Positions 44,496-64,000 of a stretch of DNA of 64,000 nucleotides are shown one piece after another. The position numbers were made by a program, and so were the translations under genes. The notes under the pieces were generated by a model. That model searched no databases, was not told the origin of the DNA, and saw nothing but the letters and a program-made list of their open reading frames with translations. Where the stretch lies: positions 81,108 through 145,107 of the forward strand of contig JBFMDH010000013.1 of assembly GCA_040754075.1 (NCBI GenBank), read 5' to 3'. The stretch's first letter is position 1. Each line of letters starts with the position of its first letter. This stretch comes from Acidobacteriota bacterium (GTDB lineage: Bacteria > Acidobacteriota > Blastocatellia > UBA7656).

Positions 44496-45650
44496 TTATC
44501 TGGCGCAGGCATTCTGAATTACCTGCATCGTTTTTTGTGCAGTCGCTTCCCAGGTAAAGCATCGGCTTCGTTGGTATCCGCGCTCGGCTAAGTCCTGGCG
44601 CAATGCATCATTGGTCAAAATCATTTTCAGAGTCTCAGTCAGGTGTTCGACCTCGTATGGGTCAAATAAAAGACCCGCATCGCCTGCGACTTCCGGCATA
44701 GAGGAAAGATTCGAGCACGCCACCGGGACTTTACAGGACATCGCTTCCAGAACCGGCAGACCGAAGCCTTCATATAGTGACGGGAAAACAAACAATTCCG
44801 AGCCGCAAAACAAATCCGGTAAATCTTCTGTGCGTACAAACCCGGTAAACATGATGTCATTCTTAAACGGCGAAGCCTCTGCAAGACGGTGCACTTCCGC
44901 AGCGCCATTCCAATCGCTTCCGGCAAGCACCAGTTGATGGGGCAAATGTTCACGCGCTTTCAACAGGTTGAATGCTTCAATTAATTTCGCATGATTTTTT
45001 CCGGGGTGTTCGATGCGCGAGATAAACAACATATAGGGTTGTGTCACGCTAAATTTATTCGCCACCCGGTGGAAAGATTCTTCCTGGTCTCGCGGAAAAT
45101 AAATTTTCGGGTCTGCGGCTAGCGGCGTAACCGTGACGAATTCTTCGGGGACCCGCGCGTATTCTACGATGTCGCGTTTACTCGATTCGCTGACGGTTAA
45201 AATTCTGGTGAGTCGGCGAATCAAAAACGGTAATACCCTGGTGATATAAAACATTCTCGCCGGGTCGTATTTAGCCTTTACATGAATGCTTGAGAAGTCA
45301 TGCACGGTTCCAACAGTGGGACAAGGTGAAGACATGGGCAGCCGGCGGTTTCCTGCCGGCAGAAACATCACATCATATTTTTGTCGTTTACAGATGTGCG
45401 GTAACCTTGATTGATGCCACGCGACATTGCGAATCGGGTTTTGAATTTTTTCACTAAAACATAAGGATTTGAGACCATTTTCGCGAGGAACGAAAATATC
45501 TTTTTCGTTTTCATAAACCATTACTTCAAATTGCGCAGCATTTTCCATTTTAGAAAATTCATTTAATAGATTAATGATGTATTGGCTGATGCCGGATTTT
45601 CCGCCATCTCCCCCAAAGGTCGTCACTCCGACTTTTAAATGACCGGACAT
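44496..45650 (-). CDS. GT4-family glycosyltransferase
   Basis: About 384 residues. The start is placed at the ATG after AAGGAGG inside the end of the preceding gene (16-bp overlap). The N-domain is VGVTTFGGDGGKSGISQYI; the C-domain has FISRIEHPGKNHAKLIEAF and the nucleotide-sugar site LFVFPSLYEGFGLPVLEAM (EGFGLPVLE) followed by VPVACSNLSSMPEVAG. A retaining enzyme that adds a sugar from an NDP-sugar donor. Last gene of the polysaccharide operon. Confidence 0.92.
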   Translation of the reverse strand: MSGHLKVGVTTFGGDGGKSGISQYIINLLNEFSKMENAAQFEVMVYENEKDIFVPRENGLKSLCFSEKIQNPIRNVAWHQSRLPHICKRQKYDVMFLPAGNRRLPMSSPCPTVGTVHDFSSIHVKAKYDPARMFYITRVLPFLIRRLTRILTVSESSKRDIVEYARVPEEFVTVTPLAADPKIYFPRDQEESFHRVANKFSVTQPYMLFISRIEHPGKNHAKLIEAFNLLKAREHLPHQLVLAGSDWNGAAEVHRLAEASPFKNDIMFTGFVRTEDLPDLFCGSELFVFPSLYEGFGLPVLEAMSCKVPVACSNLSSMPEVAGDAGLLFDPYEVEHLTETLKMILTNDALRQDLAERGYQRSRCFTWEATAQKTMQVIQNACAR

Positions 45651-46864
45651 AGCGCCTCCTTCCCGACCTGCAAACAACTTTCAAGCTGAATTAAATAATC
45701 TTCAAACCCATAAACTGAGCGGTAACGTTGATAGGCGTTATATCCATACTTGGTTGCCAATTCATCATTAATCAAAATTCTTTCAATTGCGGTTGCCATC
45801 GCATCGGTGTCCTGTTCAGGAACCAGTACGCCTGTTGAATTTTGCTCTAACCAGTCGGGAATTCCGCCGACGGCAAAACCCACCACCGGTCGACCATGAC
45901 GCATCGCCTCCAATCCAATCATGCCAAAGGGTTCGGGCCAACGAGATGGAACAACGACAACTTTGGCGGCATCGTAGAACATATTGAGTTGCGAGTTATT
46001 TACCCATCCGCGAAATTTGACACGGTTTCCCAACCCCAGTTCTCGACTTAACTTTTCCAACTCCACCACCGCATTGCCTGTGCCAACCAATGAAGCTGTA
46101 AAATCGCATCTGATTTTTTTAAGCGCCTTTAACATTAAATCAACGCCTTTGCCGCGAATCAGTTGTCCAACATAGAGTATCTGTTTTTCTTTGGGCACCG
46201 GCATCGGTTTTTCGACCGGCGCTTTGACCACCGGCGGCAAAGTAAATACCCGATCAGACGGGAACCCATTCATCAACAGTTCATCGCGCATAAATCGGCT
46301 GCCAACGAGCAAAGTGTCGAACTGATAATTTCGTCGCATCTCGTTAATTTTTTTATTGATGTTGACAAACTTCACACCCAGTAAAGATTTGGGGGCGCGT
46401 TCAAGGAAAGCGCCATCCAGGAAACATCGCCAACTGACCGGTTGCGTACAAACCTTTTCACTTTTCGCAAAATATTTATGCCGACGCGGGCAACACAAAT
46501 CATGGTCATGAATCATTCGGACAGTCTTGACATTGTGAAGCGAATCCACAAATTCGCCCATATCCGGGACTTTGTGAAAATAGACCACATCAGGAGAAAT
46601 AGATTGCAAAATCTCTTTAAAAGAAAGCGGTGCTTGATTTCTTGTCCGCTCTCCATTTGATTGCGAAGCGTTTTGCATTAACTCTTTACAATAAAAAGTC
46701 TCGGTGAACAGTTGCTGATATTCAAAAGTATTGCGGTTGGTTCGTTCACCATAAACGAGAAAACATTGATGACCGCGTAATCGCAACCCTTCGGCGGTAT
46801 CAGCCACATTTTGTTCAACCCCACCGAAATACCCGCATTTTTGATTAACGAAGAGGATTTTCAT
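45635..46864 (-). CDS. GT4-family glycosyltransferase
   Basis: 409 residues from the ATG preceded by GAGGAGG, overlapping the previous gene by 20 bp. N-terminal KILFVNQKCGYFGGVEQNV; C-domain YVGQLIRGKGVDLMLKAL and VVPSRWPEPFGMIGLEAMRHGRPVVGF (EPFGMIGLE acid pair). A cysteine-rich middle (MIHDHDLCCPRRHKYF) occurs in several GT4 enzymes. Adds a sugar to a lipid-linked oligosaccharide; specificity unknown. Confidence 0.92.
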   Translation of the reverse strand: MKILFVNQKCGYFGGVEQNVADTAEGLRLRGHQCFLVYGERTNRNTFEYQQLFTETFYCKELMQNASQSNGERTRNQAPLSFKEILQSISPDVVYFHKVPDMGEFVDSLHNVKTVRMIHDHDLCCPRRHKYFAKSEKVCTQPVSWRCFLDGAFLERAPKSLLGVKFVNINKKINEMRRNYQFDTLLVGSRFMRDELLMNGFPSDRVFTLPPVVKAPVEKPMPVPKEKQILYVGQLIRGKGVDLMLKALKKIRCDFTASLVGTGNAVVELEKLSRELGLGNRVKFRGWVNNSQLNMFYDAAKVVVVPSRWPEPFGMIGLEAMRHGRPVVGFAVGGIPDWLEQNSTGVLVPEQDTDAMATAIERILINDELATKYGYNAYQRYRSVYGFEDYLIQLESCLQVGKEALCPVI

Positions 46865-48086
46865 CAATCGCCTCCTCATAAATGTTGATCAGTTTACCGG
46901 TGATACTGTCCCAGCTATATTCCGAGCGAGCCTTTTGGTTCCCGGCATCAGCCAGCGATTTCCGTTTTTCAGAATCCTTGATTAACGTCATATACGCCTT
47001 TATGAACGTCTGTTCATTGGCAGTATCAAATAACAATCCATCTTTGCCATCTTCGACAAAAGCAGGAATGCCACCGACACGATGGGCAATGACCGGTAAA
47101 CCGGCTGCCCAGGCTTCAAGAATGACAATGCCAAAGGGTTCATGGATGGAGGGCAGTAGAAATATGTCAGCGGCTTTATAGGCGTCTTTTAAATCGGAAC
47201 TCTCGCTATCTAAACCCGAAATCAACGTCACGCGATTTTCCAATTCCATTTCATTCACGACACTCAACAATTTTTTATAGTAGTCATCATTGGTGATGTG
47301 ACCGATGAGAACCAGATGCGCATGGGCATCTCCCTTGATGAGTTCGGGCAATAATTGCACCGGGAATAGTTGATTTTTTTGCGGGTCGATGCGACCAACG
47401 GTCAATAAAACATTGGCATTTTGCGGAATGTTATATTTGCTCCGAAAAGCTCGCCCGTTTCCTTGTGCAAATTTCTCCGGGTCAACGCCATTGGGCAAAT
47501 AGACAACTTTTTTATTGGGATAGCGCTTCTGGGTTTCAATCTGTTCTGGTTTTCCAACACAAAGGATGACGGCGGCATCGTCCATCACCCGACGTGAACC
47601 GACAACCCAACCCAACGCTTTTCCCCACTCATAACTTCCCATCGTCGGTTCCGTCCAGGCTTTTGCTTCATCGGTTGGAACATCAAACAAGCCACCGTGT
47701 AAGGAAACGATGTAAGGGATTTTTCGTTTTTGTGCGACAAAACGGGCAATGCCGCCCAGTCGTTTTCCTGTGTGTAGATGAATGAGATTGAGCGATGGGA
47801 ATTTTTGCAGCGCGCGCATCAGTGAAAATGAGAAGAGGTTTCCGCCTTTGTGGTCTAACTGGTGTTTTGCTTCTTTTCTTAATCCCAGGTACGGATAAAA
47901 ATAGTTGAAGCGATGGATTTCGATATTATCCAGCTTTTCTAAGTTGGAAGCAGCCAGCGCATTCGGACAAAAAATTTCCGTATGATGTCCCATTTTTTCG
48001 AGACGCTTACTGGTTTCGAGAATGACGGTTTCGGTTCCACCCCATTCGCTTTTGACAAACCGGCGTGGCAATTGAATTACATTCAT
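46845..48086 (-). CDS. GT4-family glycosyltransferase
   Basis: 413 residues. N-terminal RFVKSEWGGTETVILETSKRL; C-domain LLTVGRIDPQKNQLFPVQLL and IFLLPSIHEPFGIVILEAWAAGLPVIAH (EPFGIVILE). It starts about 190 bp after the Wzc-like gene, the largest gap in this operon, and has a poor ribosome site. It is the first of three adjacent GT4 genes. Confidence 0.92.
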   Translation of the reverse strand: MNVIQLPRRFVKSEWGGTETVILETSKRLEKMGHHTEIFCPNALAASNLEKLDNIEIHRFNYFYPYLGLRKEAKHQLDHKGGNLFSFSLMRALQKFPSLNLIHLHTGKRLGGIARFVAQKRKIPYIVSLHGGLFDVPTDEAKAWTEPTMGSYEWGKALGWVVGSRRVMDDAAVILCVGKPEQIETQKRYPNKKVVYLPNGVDPEKFAQGNGRAFRSKYNIPQNANVLLTVGRIDPQKNQLFPVQLLPELIKGDAHAHLVLIGHITNDDYYKKLLSVVNEMELENRVTLISGLDSESSDLKDAYKAADIFLLPSIHEPFGIVILEAWAAGLPVIAHRVGGIPAFVEDGKDGLLFDTANEQTFIKAYMTLIKDSEKRKSLADAGNQKARSEYSWDSITGKLINIYEEAIDENPLR

Positions 48087-48275: not shown

Positions 48276-50756
48276 TCAATCTTTTTCCAGATAAATGGAA
48301 TCAATACCATTCAAAATTGTGCCGATAACCGGCGCACCGGCTGATTCGATTCTGCTCATCGCCTTTTTCAAGGTTGCGCCGGTACACATTCTGCCTTGAA
48401 CCACCAAAACGATGGCATCTGCCCATTGCGCCAAAACCTCTGCATCAACATAAGGCAGAATCGGCGGGCTATCGATGATCACCACATCATATTTTTCCGA
48501 GGCATTTATGAAGAGTTGCCGCATCTTTGAAGTCCCTAAATCTTCGGGAATAACTTCGCACCCAATTTGCGGTAAACAATCCACATTGGGCAGTACCGTT
48601 TGAAAAATCGCATCATCAAAACTCACAGCCGGCTCATCAAGAAAAGCGCCCAACCCTTTCATTCCATTTGAAGGTTTATCAATTAATCCGGCAATATCCT
48701 GACGATTTGCCCATCGTCGTCTTTCCTTCCTCTGATGATAGATTTGCAGGTAACCCGCAAAGAATGCTGCCGGTGATGAAATTACCGCGATGCCTTTTTT
48801 AATGACTGATCGGGAAAACCTCAGCGGCGGTTTAATAAATTCAGGAAGCCGTTTTCTTAACGGCGCAATAATCTTTCTACCCGATTCGATGATTCCTGTT
48901 TCAATATCCGCCGGTAAAATCCGACCTTTTTGCTCATCGTTTTCAGTGAGTTTCACCCAATCCCGTAGCGAGGGAATGCCATTGCGCATTCGGATTTGGG
49001 AATCAATCAATAAAACCCTATCGCCCTGACGACCGAGGCTGGCAGCGAGATTGGTTGCCACCCAGGTTGTCCCTTCCCCGTGCGATGCACTGGCGAGAAG
49101 AATTCTTGCGCCGTGATGATTAACCTGACGGCGAATTTTTCGAGTGGTCATTTTTAAATTCTCAACTAAGGCTATTTCTTTTGATTCAAACAGCCGTTCG
49201 CCTTCCGGTAATTTCGGTATAACACCGATTACCGGTATGCTGAGTTTGGCTTTTAAATCTCCAGCGGATTTAACCGTCGTATCCATCAACTCTGAACCAA
49301 CGGCTGCAACAAAGCCCAGTACCAATCCGGCAACCGCAATAACGATAAACAGAATCGCGCGGTTGGATTTCACCGGCGCAACCGGAGGCTTGGCTTCCGC
49401 TACCAGAACAAAATCCGATGATTCGGAATCGTGTACGCGATGCGCCTTAACCAATAGGTCTTCGAGAGTTTTCTTTTCTGATTCCAAGGTTGTCACATCA
49501 CGGCTATAAGCCACATACTGGCGTTCAAGTTTGGGCATTTCATCAATTTGCGATTTGACTTTATCGCGCACCGCTTTTAAATGTTCGGCACGTTCGGAAA
49601 GCGATGAGCGTTGCAGTTCCAGATCAAATTGCTTGAGCAGCATACTCTGTAAAACAGGGGCGCTCGCTGAACCGGCTTTACTCGGTATGACAACCTTATC
49701 GAGGTCTTTAATTTGTTCTCGCCACTCTTTGATTTGTTCCGTATCAACCGCAATCGCTTTGAGTTTTTCAAAAGCTGCCTGGATTTTGGCAAAATCAACA
49801 TCCGATATCAGACCTTGAGCGCGCAACCTTTTGGCGGTTTCAAATTCAACCTCCTTTTCGGTATATTCCGCCATTCGCGCTCTGTGCAGTTTGTCATCAT
49901 CAATCGCCTCTCTTAACCGTTGCAGCCTGACGTTATTTACGGTGACGGATTCCATCTCGCTGGCGGATTCAGACTGCTCTTTTGCGACCCGTCTCTTTAA
50001 GTCTTCGATAATTCTTTCAATATTTTTTAATTGTAATTCGTTGGACTGTTGCTCGATTTTTGCCTGTTCAAAAAGCAGTTCAACAGAATTGAGTTGTTCC
50101 AATGCCCACTGAGATTGTTTGCTCAAATCAATTAAGGTGTTTGCTGTGGTGTATTGCAGCAGTTTAGCGTCCGCTTCTCTTAATTTTTCTCGAATAATTT
50201 TTAATCTGGCTTCCAGGTCATGAATTTGGGTTGCAGCCTCTTCCCTGCGCAATTTCAATTGGCTTTCGATAAACACCTCGCGAAAGATGTTCGCTAAATC
50301 GGCAGCTCCTTTAGCGGAATCCCATTTCACATCAAGAATGATTAACGTCGTGCCTTTTTCGAGCGTGATTTCGCAAGCGGCGGCAATCGATTTTAATGTG
50401 GCTTTCAATTCTAAACGTTTGCGTATCTCTTCAAGATTCGATTGCATTTTTATCATTTCGATTTGGGTCGTCAGGGAGAGCGGTTTATATGGGTCGTCTT
50501 CTTCCGGTGCAGGTGGTGGTTTATACAACATCACCGTTTCGGCTTCGTATACCTCTTGATGTTTGATAGATGAAATCAAGAAAGCCAGGATCAGGAAGAC
50601 CGCAATAAATCCGATAACCACATTTCGCCTTTTCCAAATCCCTAATAAAAGCGTGCGAATATCTAATGGAAATCCGCCGCTTTCGCCAGCCTGACCAGCC
50701 GATTGTCCGTATGCCGTATTTGTATTTTTTTCAATTTCTCTGGTTTCGCTCACCAT
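48276..50756 (-). CDS. Wzc-like polysaccharide co-polymerase with degenerate kinase P-loop
   Basis: About 826 residues. An N-terminal Wzz domain (membrane helix near residues 45-65), a long coiled-coil periplasmic part, a second helix (ILFIVIAVAGLVLGFVAAVGSEL) and a BY-kinase-like domain. In the P-loop HGEGTTW the essential Lys is Thr (residue 563), and Walker A' VLLIDSQIR lacks its second Asp. Walker B VVIIDSPP remains. About 90 extra residues are inserted after A', and the C-terminus has one Tyr instead of a cluster. Probably controls chain length without kinase activity. GGAGG is just before the ATG at 50756; a GTG lies one codon earlier. Confidence 0.88.
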   Translation of the reverse strand: MVSETREIEKNTNTAYGQSAGQAGESGGFPLDIRTLLLGIWKRRNVVIGFIAVFLILAFLISSIKHQEVYEAETVMLYKPPPAPEEDDPYKPLSLTTQIEMIKMQSNLEEIRKRLELKATLKSIAAACEITLEKGTTLIILDVKWDSAKGAADLANIFREVFIESQLKLRREEAATQIHDLEARLKIIREKLREADAKLLQYTTANTLIDLSKQSQWALEQLNSVELLFEQAKIEQQSNELQLKNIERIIEDLKRRVAKEQSESASEMESVTVNNVRLQRLREAIDDDKLHRARMAEYTEKEVEFETAKRLRAQGLISDVDFAKIQAAFEKLKAIAVDTEQIKEWREQIKDLDKVVIPSKAGSASAPVLQSMLLKQFDLELQRSSLSERAEHLKAVRDKVKSQIDEMPKLERQYVAYSRDVTTLESEKKTLEDLLVKAHRVHDSESSDFVLVAEAKPPVAPVKSNRAILFIVIAVAGLVLGFVAAVGSELMDTTVKSAGDLKAKLSIPVIGVIPKLPEGERLFESKEIALVENLKMTTRKIRRQVNHHGARILLASASHGEGTTWVATNLAASLGRQGDRVLLIDSQIRMRNGIPSLRDWVKLTENDEQKGRILPADIETGIIESGRKIIAPLRKRLPEFIKPPLRFSRSVIKKGIAVISSPAAFFAGYLQIYHQRKERRRWANRQDIAGLIDKPSNGMKGLGAFLDEPAVSFDDAIFQTVLPNVDCLPQIGCEVIPEDLGTSKMRQLFINASEKYDVVIIDSPPILPYVDAEVLAQWADAIVLVVQGRMCTGATLKKAMSRIESAGAPVIGTILNGIDSIYLEKD

Positions 50757-50787
50757 CACCTCCGGGTTCTTGGCTCGATAATCAGTT

Positions 50788-52377
50788 TTATGATTTCAAA
50801 ACCACCTGTTTCGCCGGGCGATTCATCAATCGTTTGAGGACTTTTTCTTTGAAGTAGTCACGTTCCTTTTTTTCAAAACCGATAAACCAAAAGGTCGAAA
50901 AGAATAACGTCACTCCGATAGCTTCAAGAACTGCCACTTCCAAAAGGTTTTTCAGCGGATAAAAGCGTTGAAAGACATAAAGAAAACCAACTAACAAGAT
51001 TGCCGGGGGAATGCTCGGCAACACGGTTCTCGAATAAAAGCGCCAAAGTGACAGGTGATAGAGTTTTCCGGCTTTGACCTGAATGACGCCGATTTGTAAA
51101 GGCAACGTCACCGCAAAGGTTGCGATTGAAACGCCAACGATGCCAAACGGTTTGATTAATAAAATTGAGAAAATAATATTTAGAATTTGACTCGCCAAGG
51201 TCGCCATCGCGATGAATTTCTGTTGCCCGACCATGCTTAAAATGTTGTTGGTGTTACCGTGTATCACCCCTAAAAAATTTGCCGCAATCAGCCATTGACA
51301 CGCCGGAACCGCAAGTTCAAATCCGGGTCCCGTCCAAACGCGAATCAGCGGTTCGCTCAGTACCGCCAATCCGAGGAGCAACGGTGTGGCAAACGCTACC
51401 GCCAGCTTGGTGCCGCGCTCCCAGACGGCGCGAATATTGGCAACCTCTCCTGCCGCATGTAGTTCAGCCACCACCGGCGATAAATTTTTGATCAGTTGAA
51501 AACAAAATTGTGAACTCTTTTCCGAAAGGCGCATGGAAATCGCATAAACCGCAACCATTTCAAGCGGCAAAAATGCCTTGATGATAATCGAATCAACCCG
51601 CGTATAAATAAATCTGGAGACTTGGATAATCGTGAAATAAATCGAAAACGAACCAATTTCTTTAATAATTTTGCGATCAAAAATTTTCGGTGAAAGTTGA
51701 ATGTCAGGAATGGTCTTTTTCACATGAATGCCGATGACAATCATCGGTAACACACCTAAAACCAGATTCACCACGGCGAACGCTTTAATGTCTGGAAGGA
51801 TGGATAAAACGATTAACGAAGCGATGAAATATAAAATTGCCGCGATGGTTTTATACACATTTGCCACACTGGCTTTTTGGTAACCGGCGATGACGCCGCG
51901 AAACATGCCAAGCGGCATCAACATAGCTGAGCGCGCGCCGAGCACAATCAGCACAAATTTCGCAGCCCCCGAATAAGCATCGGGAATATCAAATAACCGG
52001 TTAAAAAACAGCAGACTCAACAAAACGCCTGAAAGCAAAAGCGCACCAATCCCAGCATAAACCCAAAACATCGTGCCGACGATTTTCTTCAGGCGCTCGC
52101 TATCGCCTCGCCCTTTGGCATCGGCAACATACTTGACGATGGATGCGGCAAAACCTAAATCGGCTAATTCAAACAGAGAGACGAATGCCCAGATTAACGA
52201 CCATAATCCGAAGCTATCTTTACCCAGGGTTTTAATTAAAAACGGAATTAAAATCAGCATGGTGATGGCATCGACGATGTCATCGGCGTAGCTGGTTAAG
52301 GTATTCAATAAAATATTTCGCGAACGGTCTTTTTTGAGCGCGTCTGGCTGAACCTGATGCTCAATTGTTTCAGACAT
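50788..52377 (-). CDS. Wzx-like polysaccharide flippase
   Basis: About 529 residues with 12-14 membrane helices of the MATE/MVF superfamily: LIPFLIKTLGKDSFGLWSLI near the N-terminus, then LGARSAMLMPLGMFRGVIAGYQ. It would flip the undecaprenyl-linked repeat unit across the inner membrane. The start at the ATG with AAGGCAGG fits better than the upstream in-frame start that overlaps the previous gene. It lies between the polymerase candidate and the Wzc-like gene, as in Wzx/Wzy systems. Confidence 0.92.
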   Translation of the reverse strand: MSETIEHQVQPDALKKDRSRNILLNTLTSYADDIVDAITMLILIPFLIKTLGKDSFGLWSLIWAFVSLFELADLGFAASIVKYVADAKGRGDSERLKKIVGTMFWVYAGIGALLLSGVLLSLLFFNRLFDIPDAYSGAAKFVLIVLGARSAMLMPLGMFRGVIAGYQKASVANVYKTIAAILYFIASLIVLSILPDIKAFAVVNLVLGVLPMIVIGIHVKKTIPDIQLSPKIFDRKIIKEIGSFSIYFTIIQVSRFIYTRVDSIIIKAFLPLEMVAVYAISMRLSEKSSQFCFQLIKNLSPVVAELHAAGEVANIRAVWERGTKLAVAFATPLLLGLAVLSEPLIRVWTGPGFELAVPACQWLIAANFLGVIHGNTNNILSMVGQQKFIAMATLASQILNIIFSILLIKPFGIVGVSIATFAVTLPLQIGVIQVKAGKLYHLSLWRFYSRTVLPSIPPAILLVGFLYVFQRFYPLKNLLEVAVLEAIGVTLFFSTFWFIGFEKKERDYFKEKVLKRLMNRPAKQVVLKS

Positions 52378-52414
52378 AACCTGCCTTAAAGGCAAACCAC
52401 AAGATAGCCATCTG

Positions 52415-53800
52415 TCAGTTTGCATTTGCGCTTTGATAAGCAGGAATTTTTTTGGGGGCAATGATATTTCCGATGGCAACCATCAGACCGGAAAGCAATA
52501 AAAACAGGTAATAAACCTGCGTCTGTCGAAAAATCCATTCAAGCAAGCCTTGTAAATGTAAGGTTGCAAATCCGATCAGCAGACCTAATAAAATGGCTTT
52601 GTAAAAATCGTCCTGAGATTTAAAAAATAGAAAGAGGTTACGAATATAAAATGCCGCAAGATAAGCGATAAATACGAACATTCCGAACTGACCGATTTCC
52701 GCGCCATACAGTCGATAAATATGGTGGCAGGTTCCCAGTCGGCTTTCGCCCTGCTTGCTTTCCCGGAATGCTTCCGGGTCTTGCAAATCAATCTTATCCG
52801 GGTACACATACCAGTAATAATCGGTGTTGGCTAAAGTCCAGGAATAAGCGTTCAATCCGACGCCAAAAAACTTATCTTTCATCATCGCGTCCGCCGCGGT
52901 ATTAAAATATTCGCGTGTCGCTTCGGACTCTTTCGGAGCATTTTCAAATCGCTGAATAATTTTTGGCGCAGCCATTGTTCCGATAATTGCCATCGCTACT
53001 ACACCCAATGCGACAACGCCGAACTTCCGCGCTGTCGGTTTCATTAAAACGGAAATCGCCACAACCAGACTTAATGAGCCGAACATAATAATGAGTCCGG
53101 CGCGGGATTTGGTAAAAATAACTGAAACAACCCCTAATAAAATCGCCAGGATGGCGAGGTAATTTTTCTTTTTGGTCAAGGTTCCCGACAGGTAAAGCGC
53201 CAGTGCCGATGGGATGATTAAATCAATATACATCGCCAGAGAGTTGGGATGTGGAAAACTTCCCGTCGAACGGTTCACCACTGCCTTGGTTATATATTTC
53301 GCCCAGATGACATTGATTCCTTGAAAAACCACAGCGGCAATGACACCCGAAATAACGGCTTCGACGTCCTCGCGTTCTTTAATGATATTGACGATGACCC
53401 AAAATAGAATGTAACCGCGAATAAATTTATGCAGAGTAAACAAACCAAAATAAGCGACTGGAGTTCCAATCAAAGAGATTGCCGAAATGATCAACAGGAC
53501 AACAAAGAGGGTGGTGTTATAAGGCACCCAGATGATTTTCTTTTTGGTTCCGCCCAGAATAGTAAACACAAAAAAGCTGAGAAAAAACAGGTCGGGAACC
53601 GTAACCCCAAAGCCTCTATCTACGCCGCGATAATTGACAAAAAACACTTCCTGATAAAAAGGCTTGGTTATCAGGCAGGTAAAAAAAGCCATGATGGATA
53701 ACATCGGTCTTCGCCAGCGAGGTTGCGAAAACAGTAAACCGGTAATCAGCGGAACCCCGATGAACCACATCAGGATGCCAAGCATCGATGCCGTCGTCAT
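52415..53800 (-). CDS. O-antigen ligase/polymerase-like membrane protein (Wzy candidate)
   Basis: 461 residues with about 11-12 membrane helices. Seen: TGSFPHPNSLAMYI and IFTKSRAGLIIM, typical of the O-antigen ligase (Wzy_C) family, and a large outer loop with YYWYVYPDKIDLQDP. It is the likely polymerase of the repeat unit. Its ATG overlaps the stop of the kinase-like gene by 4 bp (ATGA). Confidence 0.9.
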   Translation of the reverse strand: MTTASMLGILMWFIGVPLITGLLFSQPRWRRPMLSIMAFFTCLITKPFYQEVFFVNYRGVDRGFGVTVPDLFFLSFFVFTILGGTKKKIIWVPYNTTLFVVLLIISAISLIGTPVAYFGLFTLHKFIRGYILFWVIVNIIKEREDVEAVISGVIAAVVFQGINVIWAKYITKAVVNRSTGSFPHPNSLAMYIDLIIPSALALYLSGTLTKKKNYLAILAILLGVVSVIFTKSRAGLIIMFGSLSLVVAISVLMKPTARKFGVVALGVVAMAIIGTMAAPKIIQRFENAPKESEATREYFNTAADAMMKDKFFGVGLNAYSWTLANTDYYWYVYPDKIDLQDPEAFRESKQGESRLGTCHHIYRLYGAEIGQFGMFVFIAYLAAFYIRNLFLFFKSQDDFYKAILLGLLIGFATLHLQGLLEWIFRQTQVYYLFLLLSGLMVAIGNIIAPKKIPAYQSANAN

Positions 53801-56738: not shown

Positions 56739-57887
56739 TTAATCCAAATCCGGTACGGACATTTTCATCAACTGGAACAGTCCGTCGAGCCGTTGAGGCA
56801 TTCGAGCAGGGGATACATTACTTGCAAGCATGGCGATTGAATCCTTATCCAAAGCGTCATAGCCATGCATACCCGCAAGGCGTGCTTCCCCCATAAAACT
56901 GGGATTGATGAGCACACCGGGGTTGGTCAAAAAAAACAGGTCGCCATATTCATGATTGGCAAAATTGCAGCCATATTCATTCAAATCATTTTCCCGGAGT
57001 ATTCGACCTCGCGGTTCTTCTTGAAGCGCCTGAATAATTTTTGTGCGAGCCGTATCATTCAGGAACCAGAAGCGCGCCATCGTCGAGTCGTACATTGCGG
57101 CGTAATCTTCACCAAACTTCAAACCGAGTTTATCGATGCGCGCCATCAAATTGCACTCATCGGTGGTATTGGTCATGCCGTGGTCTGAAAAAATATAGAG
57201 GTTGACTTGGGAATATTTTTGCTCAGCCAGTTTGACGATTCTTCGCAGGTTACGGTCATACCATTGAATCTTTTCTTCGACGATTGGGGCTTCCGTACCG
57301 TGAGCATGAAGAATGGCATCCATCGCTGCTAAATAAACATACGCAAAGGTGACACCACCGTTGTCAATCGCCCTTTCCAGCGCCAATAAATTATCCGCTT
57401 CTTTGGCTCGCCAATCCGACAGATAGAACGGAATGTTGCGCTCGCGAAGTTTGTCAAAAATGGTTGGGGAGCCGTCGTTAATTCCACCTGTCTGGTAGAG
57501 GTCTCGTTTTTCCGAATAATCGAACAGGGGCAAATAGTCAAACGGCAGGTTGTAAATTTGGAAATAGCCGGTATAGCCGTAAAATTTCTGAATAACTTTA
57601 CTCATCATTCGGCGAACCCGCCCGCGCCGAGTAATCGAATCGGGCAAAATGCTCAAGCAACGACACAACGAAAACGGCGAATTTTCCGGGTCATATTTGA
57701 AAAAGGACAGGTGTCGATGTTCATATGGCATTTTGCCCGTCAATATCGTCGGGATGCAGGTAGAGCTATAGCCAAGCACGGTTCCCAGCGGCGCTTTGGT
57801 AGTCAGGAAATCATCCATAAAATGGTGCTGCTGTAAGATTTCCCAACCGAACGCATCAATGAAGGTAAAGATACTGATGGATTTCAT
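56739..57887 (-). CDS. Alkaline-phosphatase-superfamily phosphodiesterase/phosphatase
   Basis: 382 residues. Metal and nucleophile sites of the nucleotide pyrophosphatase/phosphodiesterase group are placed: FIDAFGW (Asp 11), SSTCIPTILTG (Thr 43 as likely nucleophile), LHAHGTEAP, and FSDHGMT. There is no signal peptide or membrane helix, so it acts inside the cell, unlike exported phosphoethanolamine transferases. In this operon it may remove or move a phospho-group on a sugar-lipid precursor (inference). Confidence 0.87.
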   Translation of the reverse strand: MKSISIFTFIDAFGWEILQQHHFMDDFLTTKAPLGTVLGYSSTCIPTILTGKMPYEHRHLSFFKYDPENSPFSLCRCLSILPDSITRRGRVRRMMSKVIQKFYGYTGYFQIYNLPFDYLPLFDYSEKRDLYQTGGINDGSPTIFDKLRERNIPFYLSDWRAKEADNLLALERAIDNGGVTFAYVYLAAMDAILHAHGTEAPIVEEKIQWYDRNLRRIVKLAEQKYSQVNLYIFSDHGMTNTTDECNLMARIDKLGLKFGEDYAAMYDSTMARFWFLNDTARTKIIQALQEEPRGRILRENDLNEYGCNFANHEYGDLFFLTNPGVLINPSFMGEARLAGMHGYDALDKDSIAMLASNVSPARMPQRLDGLFQLMKMSVPDLD

Positions 57888-57912: not shown

Positions 57913-58251
57913 TTAATTTTCAAATGCCCGAATCGCTTCATCTTTACAGTTATAGATGTCAAAAATGCGATGCATCCTGACGAGTTCAAAAAGCGCGCGC
58001 ACGGGTTTACCCAGTGAACAAAGTTTTAAATCACCGCCCTGAGCATTCAATTGCCGCAAACAGGACAAAATCGCGCCAAGTCCGGAACTGTCAACAAAGT
58101 TCACCCGCTCTAAATCGAAAACCACTTTTTTGCGCTCATTAATTACCGAACCAACGTCGCGTTTGAATTCTTTAACATTGCTGGCATCCAGCGTATCTGT
58201 TGGCAAAAACACCACTGTTACACTTCCTACTCTTTCTAAAATCGGTTCCAT
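57913..58251 (-). CDS. STAS-domain anti-sigma factor antagonist
   Basis: 112 residues from the ATG with AGGAGG 8 nt before it; this ATG overlaps the stop of the phosphatase gene (TAATG). It is a lone STAS domain with the phosphorylation site FVDSSGLGA (Ser 55), as in SpoIIAA/RsbV. It would bind an anti-sigma kinase when dephosphorylated by the neighbouring PP2C protein. That kinase activity may be the phosphatase gene's own ATPase domain. Confidence 0.94.
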   Translation of the reverse strand: MEPILERVGSVTVVFLPTDTLDASNVKEFKRDVGSVINERKKVVFDLERVNFVDSSGLGAILSCLRQLNAQGGDLKLCSLGKPVRALFELVRMHRIFDIYNCKDEAIRAFEN

Positions 58252-60401
58252 TAACAATTCCTCCTAATTTTTTTCTTCATCACAATGAAATTTTTTCCGC
58301 TCTCATCGCAGAAATACTCAACCGAGTCCATAATCGAATCGATGATGAACAAACCAAAACCTCCATCACGCGAGCCATCAAACGATGGGGGAACCACCTT
58401 ATTCGGATTAAAATGGCGTCCTAGATGGTGGATTTGAAATCCCAAGGTTCCTGATAAATATTCAGCCTCAAGATGAATCAACTGATTGGGGTCACTATCG
58501 TAGGCATGCAAAATGATATTGGTAATCGCTTCATTGATTGCCAGTTTTAACTGTGCCACGATTTCGCTTTCGGGTTTTAAAGAAAGCAACCTATCACTTA
58601 CTTCTTCAACAAATTTTCTTGCCGCTTTCAGGCTTTGCAGATTGGATTTGAGTTCAATTTCCATTCGGTCACTGTGACTCTCCGGCTGTGGTTTTGACTC
58701 CTGAAAATGTTTGACCTCTGCTGTTGACGCGGGTTCGATTTTCACGGCTACACAGGTAAAATCATCGGCAAATTTTTCTGATTGGGTAAATTCAATAACC
58801 GTTTTGCGAATCGCCTGAACCAGATCGGTTTCCGATAATTCCTGAAATTTCATAATGCAATCGGCCAGGCGAGCCTCGCCAAACATCTCCCCATTCGGAC
58901 TTTTTGCTTCGGTTACCCCGTCGGAATAAAAAATGAAAACGTCCCCGAACCGAAATTCTCTTTCTACCTGTTTGTAGGTTTCATTGGGATAGATTCCCAG
59001 CGGCAAATTTTCGCCTTCCAACATGAAATACTGCTTTTCATTTTTTTGATAATGAATGGTCTTGGTATGCCCACAATCGACAAAGCAAAGCTTTTGCTTT
59101 TGCGTATCAAACCTCGCATAACAAATCGTAACGAAGCTATCGAATTCCATCAGTTGTTGAGTTAATTGGGCGTGTACCCGACGCAGGATTTCTTCGGGTG
59201 CCGGAAGTCCCGAGGGGTGTTGCAAATTGGCTAATTGACCGGCAGCCCGCATGATTTGATTTTTGGTTCCGGCTCCGAGAAGGGCAGCCGGTATCCCTTT
59301 GCCCATCACGTCTCCAACAATGACATCCAGGCAATTTTCTTCATGTTTGATAAAATCATAAAAATCCCCGTCAATGCGTTGTGATGGAATACTCATAGCC
59401 GAGATTTTCAAACCGGCTATATTTTCAGGGATTTTTCCAAGCAATAGGGTTTGTTGGATTTTGGAACCGATTTCTATCTCTTGAACCAATTTGGCATTTT
59501 CAATTGATTCCTGCATCAATCGTTCATTTTCAAGAACGATGGCTCCCTGATGCGTGAGCGCCTCAATTAATTTTTTTGCCCGCGAATCGAAAACCGGTGC
59601 GCTCCGGTCTTCACTCCAAATCTCAATAGCGCCTAAAACCGCGTGACGAGTCGCAATCGGCACCACCAGAACTCCGGTTGCCAGTGCCAATTCAGGGTCG
59701 GATTCGCGAAATTCATCGATACGCGATATCGAATTGATGATGAACGTCTTCCCTTCTTCGACGGCTTTGTGGATGAGACCGTAGCCATCAAACCGTTTAT
59801 CAATATGAGTGATATGTTTCCGGGCAACCGGTTCCAAGCCTTTTTCAGAATTAATCCAAAAAATCGCTTTCAAATTCTCATGAATCGAAACCGCTTTATC
59901 CATGATGCGCCGCAATACCATTCGCGGATTTTTCAAAACCCGCAAATCGGTGCTGATTTCATATATGGTTTCCAGACTTTCCCAACTGATACTGAGTTCT
60001 TCCAGAAGTGATTCTTCCTGATTTTGCATCGCGACTTTTTCAATGGCTTTTTCAATCAGCCGTGAAAAGACCTCTCGCAAATGGCTTTGGGTTTCTTCAA
60101 AACATAAAAGCAGGTTACCGATTGGCGAATATTCAAAGCTGATCTCCAGCCGCTCCTGTTTTCGCAGGGTTGAACAGGCAAAGGAGTTTATGGAGTCGTC
60201 TTTAAAACCCAGACATGAACAGTTTTTATTTTTAATCAACCATTGCCAATCCGAGTTGGATTCAAAACCGATGCTAATCCCAAGCGCATACGCCAGCGGT
60301 TCGGCAATGCCACCGAACTCTTCCAAAAATCTATCCCTTATAGATATGGTTTGCGGCGCAAGGGCGTAATCTGGCAGCGTATTAAGGGCGTTTGTACTCA
60401 A
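58251..60401 (-). CDS. GAF - SpoIIE-type PP2C phosphatase - HATPase fusion
   Basis: 716 residues from a TTG with GGAG before it. Order: N-terminal unknown region (1-130), GAF sensor (about 140-300), PP2C domain (about 315-550) with metal Asp in RIDGDFYDF, VGDVMGKGIPAALL, FYSDGVTEA and FADDFTCVAVK, then a GHKL ATPase domain (about 590-716) with NEAITNIILHAY and DGGFGLFIIDS. One protein thus has the phosphatase and the anti-sigma-kinase type domain of a partner switch. It overlaps the response regulator gene by 20 bp, which probably controls it. Confidence 0.94.
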   Translation of the reverse strand: MSTNALNTLPDYALAPQTISIRDRFLEEFGGIAEPLAYALGISIGFESNSDWQWLIKNKNCSCLGFKDDSINSFACSTLRKQERLEISFEYSPIGNLLLCFEETQSHLREVFSRLIEKAIEKVAMQNQEESLLEELSISWESLETIYEISTDLRVLKNPRMVLRRIMDKAVSIHENLKAIFWINSEKGLEPVARKHITHIDKRFDGYGLIHKAVEEGKTFIINSISRIDEFRESDPELALATGVLVVPIATRHAVLGAIEIWSEDRSAPVFDSRAKKLIEALTHQGAIVLENERLMQESIENAKLVQEIEIGSKIQQTLLLGKIPENIAGLKISAMSIPSQRIDGDFYDFIKHEENCLDVIVGDVMGKGIPAALLGAGTKNQIMRAAGQLANLQHPSGLPAPEEILRRVHAQLTQQLMEFDSFVTICYARFDTQKQKLCFVDCGHTKTIHYQKNEKQYFMLEGENLPLGIYPNETYKQVEREFRFGDVFIFYSDGVTEAKSPNGEMFGEARLADCIMKFQELSETDLVQAIRKTVIEFTQSEKFADDFTCVAVKIEPASTAEVKHFQESKPQPESHSDRMEIELKSNLQSLKAARKFVEEVSDRLLSLKPESEIVAQLKLAINEAITNIILHAYDSDPNQLIHLEAEYLSGTLGFQIHHLGRHFNPNKVVPPSFDGSRDGGFGLFIIDSIMDSVEYFCDESGKNFIVMKKKIRRNC

Positions 60402-60837
60402 AATTCGTCTCCGGGTTGGTTAATACAATCGGCTTTTTATGCGGGGGCAAGCCAAATTCGAGTAATATTTTTACCAGCGATGATGGCGCGATGGGTTTGG
60501 CGCACGAGGCATTCGCTCCGGCTTCCAGGAAATCTCCCTGATTATCTTCAAATGACCGGGCGGTTAGAACGATTATCGTGAGGTTGTCGAACGCCTGGTT
60601 CGCGCGTATATGATTGATGACATCCAAACCGGACATCCCCGGTAAGACAAAATCGAGAAGTAAGCCATCAGGTTGGAAACGATTGATGACTTCAATCGCC
60701 TGTTCGCCGCTATAGGCAACCGCTACGTCGTACCCTTCTTTTTTCAGAATAAATTCCAGAAATCTGGCGATATGACGTTCATCATCGACAACTAATATTT
60801 TGGTTTTGTGACTGTGATCCGAACTGTTGTTAAACAT
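60382..60837 (-). CDS. Stand-alone response regulator receiver
   Basis: About 151 residues from the ATG giving MFNNSSDHSHKTK; a TTG 12 codons upstream is less likely. CheY-like: VVDDE acid pair, phosphoacceptor Asp 62 in LLDFVLPG, Thr 92 in VLTAR, Lys 114 in CAKPIA. It has no output domain. Being first in the operon and overlapping the PP2C gene, it probably acts on that protein. The sensor kinase is not in this window. Confidence 0.93.
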   Translation of the reverse strand: MFNNSSDHSHKTKILVVDDERHIARFLEFILKKEGYDVAVAYSGEQAIEVINRFQPDGLLLDFVLPGMSGLDVINHIRANQAFDNLTIIVLTARSFEDNQGDFLEAGANASCAKPIAPSSLVKILLEFGLPPHKKPIVLTNPETNFEYKRP

Positions 60838-61164
60838 GTTCCACTCGGCTTTAGGAAGTTCGTAAAGGAACAAGTTAAACTTGTCGGGGAGGAAGGTTGG
60901 TTAATGCGCTTAGCAATTGGAAAGTTTGAAGCGATTTCCCGCTTATACTTTCAGCAATGAGAAAAAGCTTTTTTTACTGGCTTTTTCTTAATTTTTTGTT
61001 CAAACAAGGGAATTTCTTTTGTCTTCTAAAATTACCGCCCCCAAGTTAGCATAGACCTCGTTATTTGTCGTGAGTTTTTTTTCAGCCCCCTGGGGTTTTA
61101 TCTGAACCCCAAATTAGTGATAATTTTTCTATTCCCCCTTAAACAATATTTGGAGTAAATACGA
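60838..61164. promoter_or_regulatory. Divergent control region between the exopolysaccharide operon and galU
   Basis: 327 bp without a gene. It contains ACAAGTTAAACTTGT (60870-60884), a perfect 15-bp palindrome 33 bp before the response regulator start, a good operator candidate. AGAAAAAGC / GCTTTTTCT with a T-run (60960-60988) is a terminator-like hairpin on the plus strand. TGGGGTT / AACCCCA (61091-61111) is a hairpin in the probable galU leader. Clear -35/-10 boxes were not found. Confidence 0.5.
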
Positions 61165-62022
61165 ATGAACGTTAAAACTGGAATCATTGCAGCGGCTGGC
61201 TCGGGAACCCGTATGTTGCCGGTGACTTTAGGCTATCCCAAAGAGTTGCTTCCCATCATCAACAAACCGGCATTGCAACTCATTGTTGAAGAGTTCATTG
61301 ATGCGGGCTTAAATAAAGTGGTCATCGTTACCGGAGCCAATCCCGACCCTTTGCACAGGCAATATGATTTAGCGGCTGCGCCACCGCACGGCAAATACCC
61401 GGCACTGGATGAGTTTGTAAACAAACTCGAGGGGATTGAAATTGTCTTTGAACCCCAAAAGGGACCTTATGGCAATGGCACACCGTTGTTGGTTGCGCGT
61501 CCCCATATCCCCGAAGGCGAAGGATTTGTTTACGCTTATGGCGACGACATCATTAAAGCCAAAACTTCGTTTGCCAGACAACTCATCGAAAAACACCAAC
61601 AAACAGACGCAGTGGTTGTTGGCACACAAAAGGTCGCCTGGGAAGACGTGGTGCGTTATGGGATTGCTCAAATTAAAGAGGGATCCACTGAAAACGAATT
61701 ATTCGATGTGATTGAAAAACCGGCGCGTGAAGAAGCCGCATCGAATCTGGCGATGTTCGGAAGATTTGTGCTGTCTCCGGCAATCATTCAAATCTTATCG
61801 GAAATTCCTTTAGGCAAATCGAATGAATTATGGCTAACCGATAGTGTCCGCGAATACATTAAACGCGGCGGAAAAGTGGTTGCCGAATCGGTTAAAGATG
61901 GCGAATGGCTAACCATCGGCGACCCGATTAATTATTTAAAAACCTTGATGGAATATGCGCTTTCCGACGAAGAAATTCGCAAGGCGCTCGAACCCCGAAT
62001 CCATCATTTGTTGAACCGCTAA
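61165..62022 (+). CDS. galU: UTP-glucose-1-phosphate uridylyltransferase
   Basis: 285 residues, GalU length. Seen: IIAAAGSGTRMLPVTLGYPKELLPI (nucleotide-binding signature, key GSGTRMLP and PKE), YGDDIIKA with the metal Asp, VIEKP, and WLTIGDP. It makes UDP-glucose, the donor or precursor for the glycosyltransferases around it, from glucose-1-phosphate that GlgP can supply. GGAG precedes the ATG. It is followed by a perfect 14-bp stem-loop. Confidence 0.95.
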   Translation: MNVKTGIIAAAGSGTRMLPVTLGYPKELLPIINKPALQLIVEEFIDAGLNKVVIVTGANPDPLHRQYDLAAAPPHGKYPALDEFVNKLEGIEIVFEPQKGPYGNGTPLLVARPHIPEGEGFVYAYGDDIIKAKTSFARQLIEKHQQTDAVVVGTQKVAWEDVVRYGIAQIKEGSTENELFDVIEKPAREEAASNLAMFGRFVLSPAIIQILSEIPLGKSNELWLTDSVREYIKRGGKVVAESVKDGEWLTIGDPINYLKTLMEYALSDEEIRKALEPRIHHLLNR

Positions 62023-62234: not shown

Positions 62235-62963
62235 ATGTTGGAAGACGCTTATTACAAAACTTCGCTCATCGATGAAGTTTATCAGCGACATGCAGGAATC
62301 GGGTTAACGAAAAACTGGCGATTTCTCAAGAAAAAATATGTGTGGGTTACGGTAATCGCCAGCGCCAAAATCCTGAAACGAGCCATTGATATTATCGCTG
62401 CTGCCAGCGGCTTATTGCTGTTATCGCCGGTTTTTTTATTTGTGGCGCTTTCAATAAAACTGACCGATAGAGGGCAGATACTTTTCTGGCAAACTCGTGT
62501 GGGGTTATGGGGAAAAGAATTTTCCTTTCCCAAATTTCGTTCCATGGTTATCAATGCCGAAGCTTTGAAAGACCGGTTATTGGAGCAAAATGATCATGGG
62601 GATGGCATCACCTTCAAAATGAAAAAAGACCCGCGTATCACCTGGATTGGGCGAATTATTCGCAAATTCAGCATTGATGAATTGCCGCAACTCTGGTGCG
62701 TGTTAAAAGGCGATATGTCGCTTGTGGGCCCACGCCCTCCGGTTCCGCGCGAAGTGGCGCTATATACGCTGGCAGACCGCAGACGTCTGGATGTGGTTCC
62801 GGGGCTTACCTGCATCTGGCAGGTAAGCGGGCGGGGTGACATTCCCTTTCACGAACAGGTCAAACTCGATGTCCAATATATCGAAAGTCACAGTGTGTGG
62901 TTCGATATTTTATTACTTTTGAAAACCATTCCGGCAGTGATTCTAGGTAAAGGCGCTTATTGA
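62235..62963 (+). CDS. Phosphoglycosyl transferase (bacterial sugar transferase)
   Basis: About 242 residues from the ATG MLEDAYYK; an upstream in-frame start at 62184 is possible as neither has a good ribosome site. A hydrophobic re-entrant helix (IIAAASGLLLLSPVFLFVALSI) precedes the catalytic part with FWQTRVG, FPKFRSMV, FSIDELPQLWCVLKGDMSLVGPRPP (Asp-Glu pair present) and PGLTCIWQVSGRG. It moves a sugar-1-phosphate from UDP-sugar to undecaprenyl phosphate, the first step of the repeat unit. The next gene starts 1 base after its stop. Confidence 0.93.
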   Translation: MLEDAYYKTSLIDEVYQRHAGIGLTKNWRFLKKKYVWVTVIASAKILKRAIDIIAAASGLLLLSPVFLFVALSIKLTDRGQILFWQTRVGLWGKEFSFPKFRSMVINAEALKDRLLEQNDHGDGITFKMKKDPRITWIGRIIRKFSIDELPQLWCVLKGDMSLVGPRPPVPREVALYTLADRRRLDVVPGLTCIWQVSGRGDIPFHEQVKLDVQYIESHSVWFDILLLLKTIPAVILGKGAY

Positions 62964-62964
62964 T

Positions 62965-64000
62965 ATGGCAATCAATCGACCTCCTAAACCGGTGATTAAC
63001 GAAGCGTATAAACGGGAACTTTATCTGCAATTTTCCCGCATCGGAATTTTGCGATTAAGAGTGAAAAGATTGATGCGGGGTTTCACCTGGTTTTTTATTA
63101 TCCAATTGCTTTCAACCTCGAAACGTGTGGTCGATTTCAATATCGCTTTGCTACTCACCATCCTCCTTTCACCTTTGTTGATAATCTCCGTGTTACTGCT
63201 AAAACCAACCGGACATGTTTTATTGAAAACGCGAAAACTCGGACGATGGTGTGCCCCATTTGATGAATTCGCCTTTCGAGTGCCTGGTCATTTAATCGGA
63301 CGGTTAATCAGGAAAACCGGCATTTCAAAACTCCCGGTATTATTCAATATTTGGCAGGGGGATATGTCATTTGTCGGACCACGCGCCGCGCTTCCCGGAG
63401 AATTAAGTCCGCGCGATAAGCTTGTCAGACGTCGTTACAATGTTCGACCCGGCTTAATTTGTCTCTGGTGGATTCGCAATCGCGCCAATATCGATTATGG
63501 CAACGAAGCGCTCTCAGACAGTGAATACATCGACAACCAGAGTTTGATGGGTGATTTGGCGATTGCTTTGCGGGCTATTCCGGCAATCCTTTATGGCAAA
63601 GGCGTGGTTACCGCTCCCGACCAATTAAAAATCCTGGGGGCGAAAATTGTTAATCTCACAATGCAAGAGACGGTTGATACCATCCTTGAAAAACTTCGTG
63701 GACACACCAGCAATCAAATCTGTTTTATCAATGCCGATTGCGCCAATCTCGCCTATGACGATAGGGAGTATTTGGGAATTCTCAATCAGGCAGAATTGAC
63801 GCTTGCCGATGGAATCGGGATGAAACTTGCCGGAAAAATTTTACATCAGGAAATTAAACAAAACGTCAACGGTACAGACCTCTTCCCAAGATTATGTGCG
63901 GCATTAGAAAGCACCGATAAAAAAATCTACCTGCTTGGCGCAAAACCCGGTATCGCCAATCTGGTCAAAGAGTGGATTCATTCAAATTATCCTCAGACGA
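62965..64000 (+). CDS. Degraded phosphoglycosyl-transferase domain fused to WecG/TagA glycosyltransferase (partial)
   Basis: The frame opens at ATG 62965 and is still open at the window edge (345 codons). Residues about 45-210 are a bacterial sugar transferase domain with a hydrophobic helix, GDMSFVGPRAALPGE and VRPGLICLW. The catalytic Asp-Glu of the sister gene (SIDELPQ) is replaced by GISKLPV (Ser 121, Lys 122), so catalysis is unlikely. From about residue 222 a GT26 domain follows: INADCANLAY, LADGIGMKLAGK, NVNGTDLF. The GT26 part probably adds the second sugar (N-acetylmannosaminuronate-type in WecG). The fusion and the lost dyad are read directly; the role is inference. Confidence 0.87.
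   Translation, partial: MAINRPPKPVINEAYKRELYLQFSRIGILRLRVKRLMRGFTWFFIIQLLSTSKRVVDFNIALLLTILLSPLLIISVLLLKPTGHVLLKTRKLGRWCAPFDEFAFRVPGHLIGRLIRKTGISKLPVLFNIWQGDMSFVGPRAALPGELSPRDKLVRRRYNVRPGLICLWWIRNRANIDYGNEALSDSEYIDNQSLMGDLAIALRAIPAILYGKGVVTAPDQLKILGAKIVNLTMQETVDTILEKLRGHTSNQICFINADCANLAYDDREYLGILNQAELTLADGIGMKLAGKILHQEIKQNVNGTDLFPRLCAALESTDKKIYLLGAKPGIANLVKEWIHSNYPQT

Follow-up and report, generated by a model that had tools for sequence, protein, structure and literature searches.

A conserved phosphoglycosyl transferase domain, predicted to be non-catalytic, fused to a WecG/TagA glycosyltransferase in an acidobacterial exopolysaccharide locus

How the enzymes that begin bacterial polysaccharide assembly at the membrane meet, and how they are controlled, is the question addressed here. 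The closest described initiating enzymes are the monotopic phosphoglycosyl transferases (PGTs), small like PglC or large like WbaP and EpsZ (PMC10942596, PMC12802240). The key residues of PglC are the pair Asp93-Glu94, Lys59, Arg88, the motif DX12P of a re-entrant membrane helix, and Asp168, which stabilises that helix (PMC12802240); the uridine-binding motif of PGTs is PRP (PMC10653937). On the side of the second step, the reference enzymes are TagA/TarA and WecG, of family GT26 (PMC6493773, PDB 7MPK, 5WB4). The catalytic and substrate residues of TagA used below are taken from PMC6493773: its Arg83 sits near the lipid diphosphate of the acceptor, and it binds the membrane through a C-terminal appendage that its activity needs.

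Three described control systems also enter the comparison. The non-catalytic protein GMPPA controls GMPPB (PDB 7D72, PMC11228364), and the PGT EpsZ is controlled by its partner EpsW (PMC12802240); we cite both as precedents that may work alike, and claim no membership in either. In Vibrio fischeri, the STAS protein SypA of the SypA/SypE switch is set by serine phosphorylation and controls polysaccharide (PMC4517449).

The gene that we study, a fusion of a PGT-like domain and a GT26 domain, has in common with PglC and WbaP/EpsZ the fold, the DX12P helix, the equivalent of Asp168 and the GPR motif, but it lacks the Asp-Glu pair, Lys59, most often Arg88, and the substrate loop; it has an added GT26 domain, and neither a 4-TM bundle nor a DUF. 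With TagA/TarA and WecG it shares the GT26 fold, Asp65, Gln167, Arg214, Arg221 and the C-terminal membrane appendage, and it departs from them by its N-terminal pseudo-PGT domain and by two replacements, Thr37 by Phe and Arg83 by Asn.

The locus and the fusion gene

The window is a stretch of 64,000 nucleotides of a 7.58 Mb genome (G000:C13:81108-145107). Beyond its end we use record L009 of the same genome, whose positions become window positions by adding 59892. The features are the following:

44496..48086, minus strand: three GT4 glycosyltransferases, in an order kept beside the cassette or the fusion in several other loci
48276..53800, minus strand: Wzc-like chain-length/ATPase protein, Wzx-like flippase, Wzy_C polymerase/ligase
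57913..60873, minus strand: STAS protein, GAF-SpoIIE-HATPase protein, response regulator
61165..62022, plus strand: sugar-1-phosphate nucleotidyltransferase (GalU-like), first gene of the plus-strand run
62235..62963, plus strand: small active PGT, a single PGT domain with no 4-TM/DUF region (PF02397, E=7.6e-63)
62965..64000, plus strand: fusion gene, 466 aa, complete in the genome to window-equivalent 64365
62965..63612, plus strand: pseudo-PGT domain of the fusion, residues 1-216 (PF02397, 98.7 bits, cut-off 27)
63133..63174, plus strand: re-entrant helix motif DX12P, Asp57-Pro70
63325..63330, plus strand: Ser121-Lys122, at the catalytic Asp-Glu position in the alignment with homologues
63619..64000, plus strand: GT26 (WecG/TagA) domain of the fusion, residues 219-466, continuing past the window (PF03808, 214.7 bits)

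The GT4 trio, the Wzc-like protein, the flippase and the Wzy_C protein, all on the minus strand and upstream, identify the home of the cassette as a Wzx/Wzy exopolysaccharide locus. A gene of the type I phosphodiesterase/nucleotide pyrophosphatase family (56739-57887) also lies within it. On the plus strand, the order is GalU-like nucleotidyltransferase, small active PGT, fusion, a third gene of 497 amino acids, haem-NO-binding protein and hybrid histidine kinase. A single base separates the stop of the active PGT from the start of the fusion, and the stop of the fusion and the start of the third gene overlap by the four bases ATGA, a spacing that suggests translational coupling.

The small active PGT starts at ATG 62235, with TTG 62184 also possible in frame, and stops at 62963. 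Its motif SIDELPQ contains the catalytic pair Asp165-Glu166, numbered from TTG 62184. At 259 amino acids it lacks the N-terminal 4-TM bundle and the DUF of the large PGTs (WbaP/TIGR03025), and the TIGR03025 profile matches it only from profile position 253 of 445, below the cut-off. Judging from its family and its intact active site, it would load the first sugar-phosphate onto undecaprenyl phosphate.

A sequence-only reading of the window had proposed that the gene at 62965 repeats the fold of this neighbour and runs on into a GT26 domain. Both parts are borne out: with 98.7 bits for Bac_transf and 214.7 bits for Glyco_tran_WecG, the two-domain fusion is far above chance. In the model of a fusion homologue that is 59% identical (mean pLDDT 80), the PGT part matches PglC with a TM score of 0.70-0.72, normalised to PglC, and the GT26 part matches TagA with 0.93-0.97. 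Followed past position 64000, as that reading had advised, the gene (L009:3073-4473) proves complete and ends 365 bases beyond the window.

Residues lost and residues kept

Residues were compared in 27 active partners, 17 fusions and 30 third genes; an extended set of fusions contains 25 distinct homologues. The catalytic Asp-Glu pair and the equivalents of K59 and R88 are present in 27/27 active partners, a set that includes the PGT of the window itself. In the fusion, the alignment confirms Ser-Lys at the place of Asp-Glu. A homologue with an intact pair, which would speak against calling the domain dead, was sought in other genomes: none of the 25 distinct fusions carries one, so that the pair is lost throughout. 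Glu94 is found in 0/25, Asp93 is kept in two, both without the Glu, and the two positions vary freely among the homologues. The loss of the dyad had thus been seen correctly, but the change is not limited to it: the equivalent of K59 is found in 0/17 fusions versus all active partners, that of R88 in 3/17, and every fusion homologue aligned there lacks about 30 residues of the substrate loop, the stretch that holds KFRSM and KxDPR in the active neighbour.

No orthologous fusion with a live dyad was found among the homologues, and the sole live PGT-WecG fusion seen is reverse-ordered. This gene (L120:2747-4255, genome G028) joins the same two families as WecG then PGT, has an intact DELPQ, and is no orthologue; it is probably a true bifunctional enzyme of the first and second steps.

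What the fusions keep is the membrane part. The DX12P motif is invariant in the 24 homologues that cover it, the equivalent of Asp168 (Asp197) is present in 25/25, the Arg of GPR in 24/25, and the C-terminal core is retained; the polar residues R173, E181, D185 and Y188 are nearly invariant in the pseudo-PGT domain. With the helix and its stabilising Asp invariant while the catalytic residues are lost, the earlier suggestion that the dead domain holds the membrane is well supported by these sequences. The PR of the PRP motif is retained, so that residual nucleotide binding by the pseudo-PGT is possible.

The ratio dN/dS, from simple Nei-Gojobori counts on two close pairs of fusions, is 0.15 and 0.26 in the pseudo-PGT and 0.10 and 0.13 in the GT26 domain: the pseudo-PGT domain is under purifying selection. 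The absence of the dyad, the kept membrane residues, the intact GT26 domain and this selection together define a conserved pseudo-PGT, that is, by its residues, a PGT without catalysis. In a quick tree of PGT domains, those of the third genes group with support 100 and those of the fusions with 88, while the active partners form one group except for one other PGT. These groups separate across phyla, and, since the branches are long, they are to be read only as separate, old lineages.

In the GT26 half, the catalytic Asp282 lies at 63808-63810. The equivalents of TagA D65, Q167, R214 and R221 are present in 25/25 fusions, and Arg224 is Arg or Lys; T37 is replaced by Phe in 25/25, and R83 by Asn in 24/25. 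The two replacements imply that acceptor or donor binding differs from that of TagA. From these residues, GT26 catalysis is likely intact, with altered substrate contacts. Most standalone GT26 proteins of the phylum keep Arg83, and a few have Asn (L119, L121); Thr37 varies widely in the family, so that neither position strictly marks the family. Those few standalone proteins weaken the case for reading the loss of Arg83 as a sign of acceptor hand-over peculiar to the fusion.

The TagA-type C-terminal appendage is present in the fusion. Since standalone TagA anchors by this appendage, an extra anchor is not strictly needed, and the value added by the pseudo-PGT is likely docking or substrate capture.

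Distribution and the third gene

The third gene lies just past the window (L009:4470-5963, window-equivalent 64362-65855). Its product consists of a nucleotidyltransferase-like N-domain, a left-handed beta-helix and a C-terminal pseudo-PGT without the dyad. The nucleotidyltransferase signature GxGxR...PK is absent from it and from the homologue rows aligned over that region. The 30 third genes compared have lost more PGT residues than the fusions, and their PGT is dead in the homologues too. The model of a homologue (mean pLDDT 77, with the beta-helix weak) resembles proteins that combine a nucleotidyltransferase with a beta-helix, the GMPPA/GMPPB complex among them. In four pairs of third genes, the nucleotidyltransferase part has a dN/dS of 0.05-0.27 and the PGT part one of 0.10-0.26.

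A scan started from the third gene, with one genome per species, finds it conserved in 33 loci of several phyla. A small active PGT is present in the fetched flank of 27 of them, three of the other six being cut by contig ends, and the fusion in 19, once in broken frames. The third protein, rather than the fusion, is thus the tighter partner of the active PGT. In a Zixibacteriota record (L076:6652-9377), the reading of the fusion and of the third gene is broken up into several frames, by sequencing error or by decay.

A scan that begins at the third gene is silent on fusions without it, and separate searches were consequently made with the PGT half of the fusion. Its 25 distinct homologues come from Acidobacteriota, 'Deltaproteobacteria', Hydrogenedentes, Planctomycetota and Riflebacteria. 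The fusion is present in 8/396 genomes of the phylum Acidobacteriota, and in 2/297, 5/68 and 3/40 genomes of three other phyla, these three counts including the centre genome of each search. It is absent from the other seven genomes of the order of its source; being present across the phylum and beyond, it is nevertheless no local oddity.

Each of the eight Acidobacteriota fusion loci has the active PGT directly upstream or at most a few kb off, with the third gene nearby. Linkage is looser outside this phylum. In G408 and G787, of the Riflebacteria phylum, the pair of PGT and third gene lies on a contig other than that of the fusion; some 30 kb separate the PGT from the fusion in G516; G713, G755 and G788 carry the fusion, and both the third gene and a small PGT of that clade were looked for there and not found. 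A universal linkage of the fusion to the active PGT is therefore rejected, and the fusion is evidently able to function beside a different first enzyme.

What the dead domains may do

We consider it likely that the fusion is the membrane-anchored second-step glycosyltransferase of the exopolysaccharide pathway, with its dead PGT half as anchor, and that the third gene supplies a second pseudo-PGT subunit. The GT26 half, whose catalytic residues are intact, would add the second sugar to the Und-PP-sugar that the active PGT produces. Held by the fold and the re-entrant helix of the pseudo-PGT, both kept in sequence and model, the GT26 active site would be fixed at the cytoplasmic face, the side on which the first enzyme acts; the pseudo-PGT most likely also docks onto the active PGT or onto its lipid product. 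The third protein would probably be a scaffold or a nucleotide-sugar-sensing subunit of the same priming complex.

The sequence-only reading had the dead domain take over the first lipid-linked sugar of the active neighbour and pass it to the GT26 part, and such a hand-over is plausible. Its strict form, a relay that takes the Und-PP-sugar of the active PGT to the fusion's own GT26 site with no release into the membrane pool, appears rather doubtful. It would account for the tight synteny and gene spacing in Acidobacteriota, for the lipid-side elements kept while the sugar-nucleotide loop is deleted, and for the Asn at acceptor-side position 83, as if the acceptor were held differently; however, the partner is unlinked or missing in several genomes, position 83 has changed in a few standalone proteins as well, and the two lost residues K59 and R88 orient the substrate in PglC. 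The evident freedom of the fusion to pair with other first enzymes speaks against an obligatory relay in which each fusion would be tied to the one gene next to it. By analogy with GMPPA and EpsW, the pseudo-PGTs might instead bind the active PGT and switch it on or off, with the degraded nucleotidyltransferase as sensor and SpoIIE/STAS as switch. Regulation of this kind agrees with the make-up of the third gene, which unites pseudo-nucleotidyltransferase, beta-helix and pseudo-PGT in every homologue whose alignment covers them, with its presence beside the active PGT in loci that lack the fusion, with the GT26-STAS fusions described below, with the recurrence of STAS (17/33) and SpoIIE (13/33) homologues in the cassette loci, and with the precedent of EpsZ (PMC12802240), but alone it leaves the fusion of GT26 to a dead domain unexplained, and we hold it to be unlikely.

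Two further explanations fare much worse. Purifying selection and the four nearly invariant polar residues could mean that the pseudo-PGT is still an enzyme through other residues, for instance for another transfer or a hydrolysis on undecaprenyl phosphates; this is very improbable, since the domain has lost the dyad, K59 and the entire sugar-nucleotide loop, and homologues differ freely at the dyad positions. For a decaying duplicate or an assembly artefact, nothing speaks beyond the loss of catalytic residues, and the same architecture in 25 distinct homologues of several phyla, the low dN/dS and the separate tree group refute it, leaving it virtually no chance. The dead-plus-live design, in most cases accompanied by a second dead copy, recurs in several phyla, which marks a conserved part of the assembly and not a broken gene.

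Like GMPPA beside GMPPB, the third protein has a dead nucleotidyltransferase and a beta-helix and is encoded beside a live enzyme, and it might work in the same manner; unlike GMPPA, it carries a pseudo-PGT as well, and the live enzyme at its side would belong to the PGTs, not to the nucleotidyltransferases. We propose, tentatively, an undescribed exopolysaccharide priming complex of several phyla in which a small live PGT is joined by two dedicated pseudo-PGT proteins, one a tether for the second glycosyltransferase and the other a doubly dead sensor-scaffold of nucleotidyltransferase and PGT, gated by a SpoIIE/STAS phospho-switch. Text searches of the available papers found no description of pseudo-PGTs, and as far as that literature goes the two conserved pseudo-PGT proteins would be new.

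The inactive version of the initiating enzyme that the second enzyme carries is conserved, apparently for the sake of its membrane part, and is a natural handle on substrate hand-over; the second pseudo-PGT and the link to STAS open a way to test how signals could reach the committed step. For annotation, there is also a warning: a match to PF02397 need not mean an active transferase.

As in V. fischeri, the STAS protein is encoded with the polysaccharide locus, whereas in some relatives here the GT26 protein carries one or two STAS-like domains of its own, as read from the sequence (L062:9545-11089, L067:4905-7019, L092, L107). These fusions would point to the priming glycosyltransferase as the STAS target in the present systems, and suggest, as a lead only, that STAS may act directly on the second-step GT26 enzyme. 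Directly downstream of the cassette, at L009:6074-8908, lie the haem-NO-binding protein and then the hybrid histidine kinase, the latter named from its sequence without a profile search; homologues of this kinase occur in 7/33 cassette loci.
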